A stretch of 64,000 nucleotides of DNA from an uncultured Verrucomicrobiales bacterium. Its GTDB lineage: Bacteria > Verrucomicrobiota > Verrucomicrobiia > Verrucomicrobiales > Akkermansiaceae. Position 1 is the stretch's first letter, and each line of letters opens with the position of its first letter. The notes beneath the pieces were generated by a model. It ran no database searches, was not told where the DNA came from, and worked only from the letters and a program-made list of their open reading frames with translations. The DNA is taken from contig CALFVF010000001.1 of NCBI GenBank assembly GCA_937928735.1, positions 186,001 to 250,000 of the forward strand, given 5' to 3'. Positions 1,866 through 6,352 of the stretch are shown here, piece after piece. The position numbers and the translations under genes are program-made.

Positions 1866-1940
1866 ATTTTATGTTGAGGGTAAGTAGAGTGGACTGAGAG
1901 AAAGGTTGGATCGCATTTCATAGTTCTCAGTTCACTCTAC
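1866..1940. repeat. Structured intergenic repeat, copy A (hairpin)
   Basis: Begins with ATTTTATGTTGAGGGTAA and continues into a 17-bp stem (arms 1884-1900 and 1924-1940, with two G-U pairs) around a 23-nt loop. A second copy lies at 2052-2124. It sits just after the anti-sigma-like gene and may act as its terminator or mRNA 3' stabiliser. There is no T-run after the stem on the plus strand. Confidence 0.75.
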
Positions 1941-2051
1941 ACTTCGACAGCCTAATTTGACTCTTTTCTCAGTATCTCAATGCTAGACAGAGTGCGAGGT
2001 GGAGAATGAGTCTAAGAACCATAACTACGTAGGGGTGGTTCGTTTACACGA

Positions 2052-2124
2052 ATTTTATGTTGAGGGTAAATAGAGTGGGTTGAGAATACGATTGGATGTA
2101 TCCATAGTTCTCAGCTCACTCTAT
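2052..2124. repeat. Structured intergenic repeat, copy B (hairpin overlapping yicC stop)
   Basis: Same 18-nt leader as copy A, then a stem with arms 2070-2086 and 2108-2124. Compared with copy A, at least three stem positions differ while pairing is kept (G-C to A-U at the outer end, A-U to G-C, C-G to U-G), and the 21-nt loop is different. The right arm contains the yicC stop codon (2116-2118). Confidence 0.75.
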
Positions 2125-2991
2125 ATTTTGTACCTGTTCGCGGACTTTCTCTAGCTCTGTTTTTCCTGAGACGACATCAAATGTAATCTCTGAGCTATGT
2201 GATTTAGAACCGATCGTGTTGAACTCCCTATTGATCTCTTGGCAGAGGAAGTCCAGAGAGCGGCCAATAGGCTCAGAGTATCCTAACATATCTAAAAAAC
2301 GCTGAAGGTGGGCATTGAGCCGAGTGATTTCTTCTGAGATGTCACAGCGCTCCGTAAAGATAGCGATTTCCTTAAGGACTCTATCATCGGAGGGGTCAAG
2401 TTCTAGCCCCGCGTCTGTGAGTCGGCGCAGGAGGCTTTGTTTCTGGTACTCCACAAGACCTGTGGAATTGGTCTCGATGCGCGTAACGAGCTCTTGGAGT
2501 GTCTGGAGGCGCTCTAGTAGATCTTCTTTGAGGTCTTTGCCCTCCGCTGCCCGCATAGAAATTAAGTTGGCAGTGGCTTGTTGAAGAGCTGGTAAAATGG
2601 CCTCCCAGACTTCTTGGGTGCCGAGCTGGTTCTCCTCAAAGTGAATCACACCCTCAGCACGCAGGAGATCTGTGGCACTTAGTTGGCAGGATTGGCCGAT
2701 GTGCTCAGAGATCTCTTCGAGCGCTAGACTAAGAGCCTTTGCTTTTGCTAGGTCGATTTTTGTGGAACGAACAGACTGAGATGTCGGTTCTATGTGAATG
2801 GAGGCCTGAATTCGCCCCCTAGTGAGGTGGCTAAGGAGGTGCTTTTTAATCGCGGGTTCTAGTTCACTGTAGGCACGTGGTATCTGAGTGACCACCTCTC
2901 CCTGCTTACGGTTGACAGAGCCGAGTTCGACTCTGGCGATAAGGTGCTGGGCTGTGTGCTCTGCACGGCCAAATCCGGTCATCGAGTGCAT
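2116..2991 (-). CDS. yicC: YicC/YloC family endoribonuclease
   Basis: 291 residues, the family's usual length. The N-terminus MHSMTGFGRAE is the family signature. The C-terminal part carries the second signature (EINREFNTIGSKSHSSEI, then VSGKTELEKVREQVQNIE). YicC proteins are reported RNases linked to small-RNA turnover and stationary-phase survival. The middle is acidic and helical, including a likely coiled coil around 160-220. It lies 9 bp after the tatC stop on the other side of 2991, so it is not obviously co-transcribed beyond tatC-yicC order on the minus strand. The stop codon falls inside hairpin copy B. Confidence 0.92.
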   Translation of the reverse strand: MHSMTGFGRAEHTAQHLIARVELGSVNRKQGEVVTQIPRAYSELEPAIKKHLLSHLTRGRIQASIHIEPTSQSVRSTKIDLAKAKALSLALEEISEHIGQSCQLSATDLLRAEGVIHFEENQLGTQEVWEAILPALQQATANLISMRAAEGKDLKEDLLERLQTLQELVTRIETNSTGLVEYQKQSLLRRLTDAGLELDPSDDRVLKEIAIFTERCDISEEITRLNAHLQRFLDMLGYSEPIGRSLDFLCQEINREFNTIGSKSHSSEITFDVVSGKTELEKVREQVQNIE

Positions 2992-3000
2992 GGTCTGTAT

Positions 3001-4887
3001 CTAGTCTTTGGGTGGGCGAGGTTTAGGGACATGAGGACGATGATCAGGAGACTCGGTCTTTGTATTAGGGCTTCCTGTGTCTAGCTGTTTTTCCTGTTTA
3101 CTGAGTTCTTCGATTTCGCGATTAGCGTCTTCGAGTATTTGATGGCAGGATTCTGTGTCATTTTCACCCGTTTCGCTGGTAGGGTGGGCATGTTCTTTGT
3201 CCTCATCGTCAAGACGATTTGACTCAGGGTGGTTCACCCGAGTCGGGTCGACGTAGTCGGGGTCTTGCTCTCCATTCGGGTACTGCTCAGCATTAGGTTC
3301 ACCAGAAACTTCAGCTTCATGTTCATCATGATAAGGCTGATACTCTGATGCTGCTTTTGAGTGAGAAATGAGGCGTCCGTGCTCATCATGGTCTTTGTCA
3401 TAATCAATGAGGTGGCCGTGTTCATCGTGATAAGGATCATGATGAGGGTCTAGAGGGTGACCATGTTCATCGTGATCTGGATAGATGAGGCGTCCGTGCT
3501 CATCATGGTTTCTATCATAATCAATGGGGTGGCCATGATCATCATGATATGGGTCATGGTGAGGGTCTATAGGGTGGCCATGTTCATCATGGTCTGGGTA
3601 GATGAGGCGTCCCAATTCATCATGATTTCGATCATAATCAATAGGGTGATCGTGTTGGTCATGATAGGGGTCGTGATCAGGACTAGGGTCTGTGTGAGAG
3701 TGAGAGCTCTCCACCACTCCCGCTGGACTATTGAGCCTAGGCTTTGAGGAGCTTTGCCATTCTGCCGCTTCTTTGGCTTCTTCACGTAATTGCTTCTTGT
3801 AGTCAAAGTAAGCGAACCAAATACAGCACTCATAGAGTACACACATGGGGAGGGCTAGCAGCATGAGTGTGAAGGCATCCCCTGTGGGTGTGATGACAGC
3901 AGCCACGACGACTATGGTCAGAACCGCATAGGCGCGACTATTACTCATTGTCGGGTAGTTGAGTAGTCCTAGCTTCACAAGTGTCATAACAATGACTGGG
4001 AGCTCAAAGGAGAGTCCAAAGATCAGCGTGAACTGAGTGGCGAAGGTGATGTAGTCACCAATTCTCCATTCATTTTCCACATCCATGCCTTTACTGAATT
4101 CATAGAAGAAGTCGAGTGTACGGGGCAGGACAAAGAAGTAGGCGAAGCAGACACCGAGAAGGAAGAGCCCAAAGCCAACAGTCATTGCAGGCCAGAGTGT
4201 CTTCTTTTCATTTTCCTTCAGACCGGGGAGAATGAACTGCAAGATGAAATAGAGCAGTAGGGGAAATGAGATGACAATCGCCGCAAAGAAAGAAAGCTTA
4301 AGTGCCAGCATGAATGTCTCTGTGGGTTTGAGAGAGCGCATGTAGACGACTTTGTCTTTGGCATTGGGTGTGGCGTCTGGCTGTTTTTCTATGAGGGAGA
4401 GAATGGTTTCTTTGAGCTCGGAATCGAGGGCGAGACTGCGGATGTAGTCAGCCTCCTTTTTCTGATTTTTTTCGTCCGAAGCCTTAGGGTCATTGAGCAG
4501 CTTAGCTGTACGGTAGTACTGAGCGGCGTGGATATGTTTCTCAAGGATTGGGTCATTGAGTTGGGCGAAGAACTTCGTCTGGTGTTTCTCCTCAAGCCCT
4601 TGGATGCCAACAGCCATTTTTTTGGCTGTTTCCCAACGATCTGTATCGAAGTTTTTGGGTAGTCTGGATTGTTGTTTGAGCTGCCATACTTCCTCAATAG
4701 GACGACGCAGCACTTCCATGAGTTCACTGTGGAAAATATAGCAACCAATTGTTGCGACTAAGAGGGTGAGGACGATTTTTGTAATCGTGTCACGCAGATC
4801 TTCTAAATGCTCAAGAAATGGCTTTTCAGCGGCATCACTAGAGGCCGTTGTGTTTCGGAAGTTAAAGACTTTTTTAAGTAAGAACAT
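3001..4887 (-). CDS. tatC: Sec-independent translocase TatC with large loop insertion and His/Asp-rich repeat tail
   Basis: 628 residues, about two and a half times a standard TatC (~250). Residues 1-35 carry the TatC entry motif (FLEHLEDLRDTI). Span 1 is near 35-55. The next ~130 residues are a soluble charged insertion in what is normally a short periplasmic loop. Residues about 190-370 hold the other five spans with family features (ILPGLKENEKKTLWP, GLSFELPVIVM, ITPTGDAFT). After the last span a ~250-residue hydrophilic tail follows, with eight 13-residue units of type xxxHDEHGxPIDx at 406-509. The first 370 residues are enough for twin-arginine substrate binding. The tail would face the cytoplasm in the known topology. 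No tatA gene is adjacent. The tail function is unknown. Confidence 0.93.
   Translation of the reverse strand: MFLLKKVFNFRNTTASSDAAEKPFLEHLEDLRDTITKIVLTLLVATIGCYIFHSELMEVLRRPIEEVWQLKQQSRLPKNFDTDRWETAKKMAVGIQGLEEKHQTKFFAQLNDPILEKHIHAAQYYRTAKLLNDPKASDEKNQKKEADYIRSLALDSELKETILSLIEKQPDATPNAKDKVVYMRSLKPTETFMLALKLSFFAAIVISFPLLLYFILQFILPGLKENEKKTLWPAMTVGFGLFLLGVCFAYFFVLPRTLDFFYEFSKGMDVENEWRIGDYITFATQFTLIFGLSFELPVIVMTLVKLGLLNYPTMSNSRAYAVLTIVVVAAVITPTGDAFTLMLLALPMCVLYECCIWFAYFDYKKQLREEAKEAAEWQSSSKPRLNSPAGVVESSHSHTDPSPDHDPYHDQHDHPIDYDRNHDELGRLIYPDHDEHGHPIDPHHDPYHDDHGHPIDYDRNHDEHGRLIYPDHDEHGHPLDPHHDPYHDEHGHLIDYDKDHDEHGRLISHSKAASEYQPYHDEHEAEVSGEPNAEQYPNGEQDPDYVDPTRVNHPESNRLDDEDKEHAHPTSETGENDTESCHQILEDANREIEELSKQEKQLDTGSPNTKTESPDHRPHVPKPRPPKD
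3361..3672 (-). repeat. Tandem repeat in tatC encoding His/Asp-rich 13-residue units
   Basis: The DNA has an exact 117-bp period (the string ATGAGGCG recurs at 3368, 3485 and 3602). Each 117-bp unit encodes three related 13-residue units, giving eight units in all and about 30 histidines. Copies differ by scattered substitutions, so the array is fairly recent or kept uniform. Confidence 0.9.
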
Positions 4888-5582: not shown

Positions 5583-6092
5583 ATGAAACCGCCTTACGCC
5601 TATCAAAGACATGACCTTAAGGACGCCACTTGGAAACTTTTAGAACCTCATTTACCAGGCCGAAAAGGCTCCTGGGGAGGTGTCGCCAAGAATAATCGGC
5701 TTTTTATTAACGCGGTTCTATGGATTTTGCGCACAGGTGCTCCGTGGAGAGATTTACCTCCTTCCTACGGAGATTGGAAAAACACTCATCGGCGATTTAC
5801 TAGGTGGCGAGATCGCGGAATCTGGGAAAAGTTGCTCAATATATTGATTGAGAATCCCGATTTTGAATGGCTAATGATAGACGCGAGCCATGTGAAAGTT
5901 CATCCTCAAGCCACAGGTGCTCAGGGAGGAAACGAAGCTATGAGCAAGACAAAAGGGGGCTCAACACCAAAATACATCTTTCCGTGGATGCGCATGGTAT
6001 GCCGGTTCGAGCCCTTATCACAAAAGGCACCACTGCTGATTGTTCCAAAGGTATTGAGCTTATCGAAAACTTCGATGCCCAACATCTTCTAG
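5583..6092 (+). CDS. IS5-family transposase, first frame (orfA)
   Basis: 169 residues. The N-terminal half is the DUF4096-type domain found at the start of these transposases (WKLLEPHLPGRKGSWGG, then ILRTGAPWRDLPPSYGDW). It includes the first catalytic aspartate in WLMIDASHVKVHP. After about residue 125 the reading departs from family sequence (KYIFPWMRMVCRF), and the family sequence resumes in the -1 frame. The join falls at AAAAGGGGGC (5951-5960). The full enzyme would arise by -1 slippage there, as in other two-frame members of this group. Confidence 0.9.
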   Translation: MKPPYAYQRHDLKDATWKLLEPHLPGRKGSWGGVAKNNRLFINAVLWILRTGAPWRDLPPSYGDWKNTHRRFTRWRDRGIWEKLLNILIENPDFEWLMIDASHVKVHPQATGAQGGNEAMSKTKGGSTPKYIFPWMRMVCRFEPLSQKAPLLIVPKVLSLSKTSMPNIF

Positions 6093-6352
6093 CAGATCGA
6101 GGGTATGATACCGATAAAATCGTTGAATTCGCCAAACAGTCAGGCATGAAGCCTGAGATTCCCCCGAAGAAAAACCGGAAAGAGCAACGAGAGTTCGACC
6201 GGCATCTCTATAAAATCAGGCATCTCGTAGAGAACGCGTTCAATGAGTTGAAGCGCTGGAGAGGTGTAGCAACTCGCTATGCCAAACGAGAGAGTTCCTT
6301 CTTAGCTGTGGTTCAAATAGCTTGTATGTGGCGTTGGTTGAAAATCTTGTGA
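5867..6352 (+). CDS. IS5-family transposase, second frame (orfB)
   Basis: The useful part begins where this frame joins orfA near 5951. From there it reads GLNTKIHLSVDAHGMPVRAL, a family block, then LADRGYDTDKIV (second catalytic Asp) and RHLVENAFNELKRWRGVATR (catalytic Glu), completing a DDE set. The upstream portion (from 5867) is a shadow of orfA. No stop or deletion breaks the frame before 6352, so with one -1 frameshift the transposase is complete, and the element is probably still mobile. Confidence 0.88.
   Translation: MANDRREPCESSSSSHRCSGRKRSYEQDKRGLNTKIHLSVDAHGMPVRALITKGTTADCSKGIELIENFDAQHLLADRGYDTDKIVEFAKQSGMKPEIPPKKNRKEQREFDRHLYKIRHLVENAFNELKRWRGVATRYAKRESSFLAVVQIACMWRWLKIL

Follow-up and report, generated by a model that had tools for sequence, protein, structure and literature searches.

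TatC proteins of the order Verrucomicrobiales bear long acidic arms at their C-terminal ends that seem undescribed, and in the uncultured species sampled by the window (the whole 64,000-nucleotide stretch of DNA analysed here) the arm carries in addition an array of eight His- and Asp-rich units. The copies of the repeat have diverged mostly by silent changes, which is the strongest single evidence that the array peptide matters. We favour, tentatively and short of an even chance, an electrostatic and tethering role for this long, disordered and polyanionic cytosolic arm, with metal-capable His/Asp modules as accessories.

A long-tailed TatC and its repeat array

The features used below, with positions in the window, are as follows.

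3001..4887, minus strand: tatC, encoding a long-tailed TatC of 628 aa (open reading frame; Pfam TatC PF00902, E=4.6e-63; Foldseek matches to solved TatC)
3847..4812, minus strand: TatC domain, aa 26-347, six transmembrane helices (Pfam; AlphaFold2 pLDDT mostly about 80-98)
4342..4680, minus strand: large helical insert in the first periplasmic loop, about aa 70-182 (alignment to solved TatC; high-pLDDT helices)
3004..3759, minus strand: C-terminal cytoplasmic tail, aa 377-628, acidic, His-rich and predicted disordered (composition; aa 393-577 mostly with pLDDT below 50)
3553..3669, minus strand: repeat copy 1, aa 407-445, PYHDQHDHPIDYDRNHDELGRLIYPDHDEHGHPIDPHHD
3436..3552, minus strand: repeat copy 2, aa 446-484, PYHDDHGHPIDYDRNHDEHGRLIYPDHDEHGHPLDPHHD (13 of 17 codon changes relative to copy 1 silent)
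3364..3435, minus strand: partial repeat copy 3, aa 485-508, PYHDEHGHLIDYDKDHDEHGRLIS
3319..3336, minus strand: isolated degenerate unit PYHDEH, aa 518-523
3082..3156, minus strand: predicted C-terminal helix near the end of the tail, aa 578-602 (AlphaFold2 helix, pLDDT about 83-86)
2116..2991, minus strand: yicC, the next gene downstream of tatC (Pfam)

The PF00902 profile was matched over the whole domain (positions 1-208 of 208, 213 bits against a cut-off of 25.1), and the open reading frame (3001-4887, minus strand) stays in frame to its stop codon. An AlphaFold2 model, built with an alignment of 43 TatCs, gave a confident TatC body, the last helix of which reaches residue 384, and this body has the six-helix TatC fold of the solved structures 4b4a, 4hts, 9e02 and 9dzz (Foldseek, TMt 0.74-0.84). 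Because TatC has six transmembrane helices with both its N- and C-termini in the cytoplasm (PMC10197872), the tail is assigned by homology to the cytoplasm, where the first-pass annotation had also placed it. Periplasmic inserts are present in the TatCs of Nitratifractor and Myxococcus (PMC13323110). The insert in the first loop of the window's TatC (4342-4680) is predicted by AlphaFold2 to be well ordered; in the related loci L099-L105, where the matched stretch is shorter, it may be small or missing.

The 252-residue tail contains 36 His, 64 Asp/Glu and 20 Lys/Arg, of which 25 His and 30 Asp/Glu fall within the 109 residues of the array; the roughly 30 His of the first-pass annotation are corrected accordingly. 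That annotation was right about the number of units, eight, and about their place after the last membrane span. They follow the pattern HD[EQD][HL][GD][HR][PL][IL] and occupy aa 409-508 (window 3364-3663), with starts at residues 409, 422, 433, 448, 461, 472, 487 and 500. The units are not all 13 residues long, as had been claimed; the spacings between their starts are 13, 11, 15, 13, 11, 15 and 13, so that the array has a period of 39 aa or 117 bp with three units in each. The three units per 117 bp thus stand, but the DNA repeat, described earlier as exact, is exact in length and not in sequence, since copies 1 and 2 are only 82% identical in DNA (90% in protein). Tandem Repeats Finder (TRF) reported a repeat at 3368-3681 with a period of 117, 2.7 copies, a score of 423 and 83% matches. 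Of the unit motif proposed earlier, xxxHDEHGxPIDx, the HDEHG core was retained, but Pro and Leu are equally common (four each) at the position given as Pro, and the consensus is HDEHG[HR][PL]I.

The tail continues well beyond the array, up to aa 628. Nearly all of aa 393-577 has pLDDT below 50 in the AlphaFold2 model, so the array is predicted to be unstructured; repeats often receive low AlphaFold confidence. His residues of the array are clustered with Asp at regular spacing, as expected of a His-rich metal-binding tail, and the densest 60-residue stretch of this TatC contains 18 His, far more than chance would give in the window, as opposed to 7 in its next best open reading frame. A protein search of the genome (E<=10) detected no second such sequence, and the genome encodes DPYHD at three sites, all within the array. 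DPYHD was considered as a genome-wide motif and rejected, matches outside TatC being about as frequent as those of reversed-pattern controls and mostly located in short chance frames. No known domain or repeat family was found in the tail by searches of Pfam (E<=10), the PDB, plasmids and phages. EF-hand, dockerin and RHS/YD repeats, the last suggested by the likeness of DEHGxxI to a YD-type turn, were likewise set aside because none of the three has profile support.

The neighbours of tatC are yicC and rsfS, and no metal-related neighbour was seen; yicC lies beside tatC in 37 fetched TatC loci, the window's included (some genomes are counted twice). Elsewhere in this region, two copies of an intergenic element of about 78 bp (window 1866-1944 and 2052-2128) are 84% identical, with no further copies in the genome by BLAST, and two overlapping open reading frames beside rsfS (5583-6352) resemble, by eye, an IS5-type transposase split by a frameshift.

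Selection on the repeat copies

Repeat copies 1 and 2 differ at 17 codons, and 13 of these differences are silent. The 21 nucleotide differences are split 4, 2 and 15 over codon positions 1, 2 and 3, corresponding to a dN of 0.071 and a dS of 1.72 (Nei-Gojobori). Only four codons changed their meaning, whereas about 14 would be expected from 21 random changes, and none of 5,000 simulations gave four or fewer. In the other five reading frames, almost every one of these differences is non-silent (13-16 changes). Copies 1 and 3, compared over 72 nt, also differ non-randomly (P=0.0004 at kappa 2, 0.003 at kappa 6), and copies 2 and 3 alone gave no significant signal of selection (P=0.10). The test compares copies inside a single gene, for which strain data would be a better source. 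Since most changes between copies 1 and 2 are silent, it is the array peptide, and not the DNA alone, that has been maintained, and since the repeated part has been kept by natural selection, the array is probably functional. The mixed use of His codons (18 CAC, 18 CAT) and Asp codons (20 GAT, 18 GAC) fits old repeats and not recent slippage; a chance or slippage origin is also disfavoured by the codon test on copies 1 and 2.

Acidic tails among the relatives

A TatC turned up in 55 of the 58 related genomes searched and at 80 named loci, mostly from Akkermansiaceae and other Verrucomicrobiales (Rubritalea, Persicirhabdus, Luteolibacter, Haloferula, Roseibacillus, Prosthecobacter), as well as in 136 of 141 genomes of a class-wide sample, from which further loci were read. 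Removal of near-duplicates left 135 complete TatCs of the class. Of these, 94, including that of the window, have a long tail, defined here as 50 aa or more beyond the last helix, so the idea that the tail is peculiar to the window's species was rejected. The first-pass annotation had named two refuting conditions, a tail missing or frame-disrupted in close relatives and a location outside the cytoplasm; relatives do carry a tail, that of the window is not frame-disrupted and its location is cytoplasmic by homology, so neither condition applies. All 94 long tails are net acidic, with a median of 32% Asp+Glu and 10% Lys+Arg. Their His content has a median of 4.8% (1.4% in the TatC bodies), reaching at least 5% in 43 tails and zero in 12.

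On a quick maximum-likelihood tree of the TatC bodies, the long tail changes state 5 times, where shuffling leads one to expect 35, and almost all long tails fall within one clade of 98 members (support 99). For His-richness, 26 changes were counted (shuffle mean 32, minimum 25). The acidic arm is therefore old and stable and His-richness labile. Accordingly, His content is not conserved among orthologues, as illustrated by family f4, which from the named loci L099-L105 we judge to be Prosthecobacter-like: its members keep the arm, with a word of their own, DNENYNPW, and only 0-1 His. A class-wide distribution of the tail was rejected, since the TatCs sampled in other orders mostly extend 7-46 aa past the last helix, with L167, L168 and L176 as exceptions. 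Inside the clade, gut Akkermansia-type TatCs (L093-L097, L114-L123, L136) have mostly lost the long tail and retain 4-31 aa, with one of 55; environmental relatives of these genomes retain the long tail. L176, a TatC from another family (f45), has a His/Asp/Tyr cluster of its own, HYHDDHYHREH, which may have been gained independently.

Several short words recur among the tails, which are related by descent, so that neither word counts nor His-spacing counts are independent. Seven tails contain HDPYH and 11 contain DPYH, versus about 0 and 0.44 in shuffled tails. A word of at least five residues is shared with the window's tail by 25 tails, versus a mean of 8.7 and a maximum of 15 in shuffles. 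The longest shared words are HDPYHDDH (L047) and DEHGHLI (L161, from another family), but word lengths of at least 8 and at least 7 were reached in 1 and 9 of 200 shuffles, respectively, so the single matches are suggestive and only the count of 25 tails is firm. In tails with at least six His, pairs of His with a spacing of 2-8 are enriched about 2-fold over chance, HD is enriched 1.8-fold and YH 2.95-fold, and KH/RH occur at 0.25-0.37 of expectation.

Other tails have different elements. EHAHL is found in 8 tails (about 0 expected), and the word (R)EHAHL/Y in L012, L083, L089, L091, L098, L146, L148, L150 and L159, which span several families. The tails of L108 (3013-4509) and L112 (2941-4302) end in a ComEA-like helix-hairpin-helix (HhH) domain (PF12836, E=4e-11 and 9e-13) preceded by a His-rich linker; L158-L162 are alike by sequence, and a literature search found no description of a TatC-HhH fusion. 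Those of L107, L109 and L110 end in a helical-looking segment, YYSGPTEELKxxLxxELKxE..., which follows a His/Asp-rich stretch; for L110, Pfam gave no match other than TatC. Tandem repeats of other kinds are present in the tails of L050 (DAPADAPTP), L057 (DVS), L061 (DPS) and L065 (EPT). The L066 tail is basic, with 23 Lys/Arg versus 7 Asp/Glu, and resembles a frame-shifted version of an L050-like repeat, whether by assembly error or in reality.

Role of the arm and comparison with known systems

A single TatA-family gene was found in the genome (86 aa; 62 bits, above the cut-off), located away from tatC, in agreement with the report that in Verrucomicrobia tatC lies apart from tatA (PMC3827258). 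Among 58 genomes from the order, 47 have exactly one such gene. Probable Tat substrates, recognized by the TAT_signal profile, include DUF1552 (HXXSHH) proteins, DUF1501 proteins, Gfo/Idh/MocA proteins and a molybdopterin oxidoreductase; the genome has six HXXSHH genes.

In the electrostatic reading that we favour, the arm would be a polyanionic, intrinsically disordered extension at TatC's cytoplasmic end that is the rule throughout the order Verrucomicrobiales. Its common role would most likely be electrostatic and tethering, because acidity is universal among the tails and His is not. At the mouth of the translocon, near the signal-peptide site, it could concentrate positively charged partners such as twin-arginine precursors and the amphipathic helix of the usually single TatA; that it may also replace the long cytosolic tail of the missing TatB is a guess. 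His/Asp/Tyr modules with words of the HDPYHD type would have been added in several lineages and, in the window's species, multiplied to the eight units, which are kept by protein-level selection. Metal binding by the array of this species is plausible from its composition: the modules would most likely be reversible, modest-affinity binders of divalent transition metal, and binding would make the arm stiffer or cancel part of its charge and might thereby couple docking to metal status. Metal binding cannot be the common role of the arm, because the arm persists in f4 with hardly any His. Two points count against the electrostatic reading: relatives that lack the tail (gut Akkermansia-type genomes and other orders) retain TatC, and the C-terminus of TatC tolerates added sequence, since E. 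coli strains with C-terminally tagged TatC serve in export assays (PMC13323110).

A possible, if unlikely, alternative is that the arm is a multivalent docking platform, its units being repeated short linear motifs for a chaperone, TatA or a class of substrates, in which His is merely part of the motif and terminal modules (here the helix; in other families, HhH domains or helical ends) serve as further hooks. The conservation of Gly, Pro/Leu and Ile positions besides His and Asp, more than a pure chelator requires, is in line with this, as are the conserved words of other tails (EGEExDDGExED, REHAHL, GDDGW, DNENYNPW), the HhH ends of L108 and L112 and the predicted helix at aa 578-602. However, outside the window's species the unit occurs only as fragments, DEHGHLI in L161 and HDPYHDDH in L047.

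Metal buffering, the function suggested in the first-pass annotation, fares worse as the arm's purpose. In a strong form of this idea, the array would keep Zn, Ni, Cu or Fe in place at the translocon, either to load Tat substrates with metal ahead of their export or to make export depend on the supply of metal. This would be compatible with the array's 25 His and 30 Asp/Glu in 109 aa, the regular HDEHGH spacing, the selection on the peptide and likely substrates such as molybdopterin oxidoreductase, DUF1501 and DUF1552/HXXSHH proteins. Yet the trait conserved in the 94 TatCs is the acidic disordered arm, the 26 changes in His-richness are little below the shuffle mean of 32, and tatC is adjoined by yicC and rsfS rather than by a metal-related gene. 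Tail His is only weakly and non-significantly correlated with the number of DUF1552 genes (Spearman 0.22-0.23, p 0.10-0.13; for gene density p 0.04, uncorrected), and f4 genomes have 8-17 DUF1552 genes each with 0-1 His in the tail; for these two reasons we consider a dedicated metallation device improbable. Cofactor insertion, moreover, normally depends on dedicated chaperones. More doubtful still is a metal-responsive Tat regulator, in which metal would alter both charge and shape of the acidic arm and so open or close precursor docking; if true, export of folded proteins would be tied to cytosolic metal status. Least probable of all is a functionless product of neutral slippage in a disordered tail that freely gains and loses simple repeats, as the unrelated tandem repeats of L050, L057, L061 and L065 and the basic, possibly frame-shifted end of L066 might indicate, because the divergence of copies 1 and 2 is strongly silent-biased (0 of 5,000 simulations), 94 of 94 tails are still acidic and tail presence is phylogenetically stable (5 changes versus 35).

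The first-pass annotation knew of no TatC with such a tail, and our literature search, which covered few subscription papers, likewise found no description of long or His-rich TatC tails, Verrucomicrobia included. Among solved proteins, the best match in both sequence and fold is the TatC of Nitratifractor salsuginis (PDB 9e02/9e07), which shares a large periplasmic-loop insert and a short acidic C-terminal stretch, EEKEDDEEEEEDEF. Its insert, however, is disordered in cryo-EM (PMC13323110), whereas that of the window is predicted to form ordered helices, and it lacks a long His-rich tail. E. coli TatC (PDB 9dzz, 9e01) has the same six-helix fold (Foldseek E 6.8e-07 to 2.4e-06), cytoplasmic termini (PMC10197872) and, by alignment, a short acidic C-terminal end, GKGRNREEENDAEAES, but its tail is only about 20 aa long and free of His repeats, it lacks the first-loop insert, and it works with both TatA and TatB.

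His-rich metal-binding segments are known from HypB, SlyD and the cytosolic loops of ZIP/CDF transporters. Like the array they are His/Asp-rich, disordered and cytosolic, but no sequence relation to them was found (Pfam E<=10; PDB) and metal binding by the array is putative. TatB, which has a more extended cytosolic tail (PMC10197872), offers a parallel as a long unstructured cytosolic extension at the translocon, with the difference that TatB is a separate protein, while here the extension is on TatC itself in a genome with one TatA-family gene. TatC counts as the conserved and compact core of the Tat system; throughout this order it bears a cytosolic arm that can reach about 250 residues, is always acidic and has lineage-specific modules, on translocons mostly with a single TatA-family protein, and the silent-biased divergence of the repeats marks the array as more than slippage debris. 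The order is thus a natural system for asking what cytosolic extensions, elsewhere represented by the tail of TatB, do in Tat docking, and whether protein export responds to metal status.
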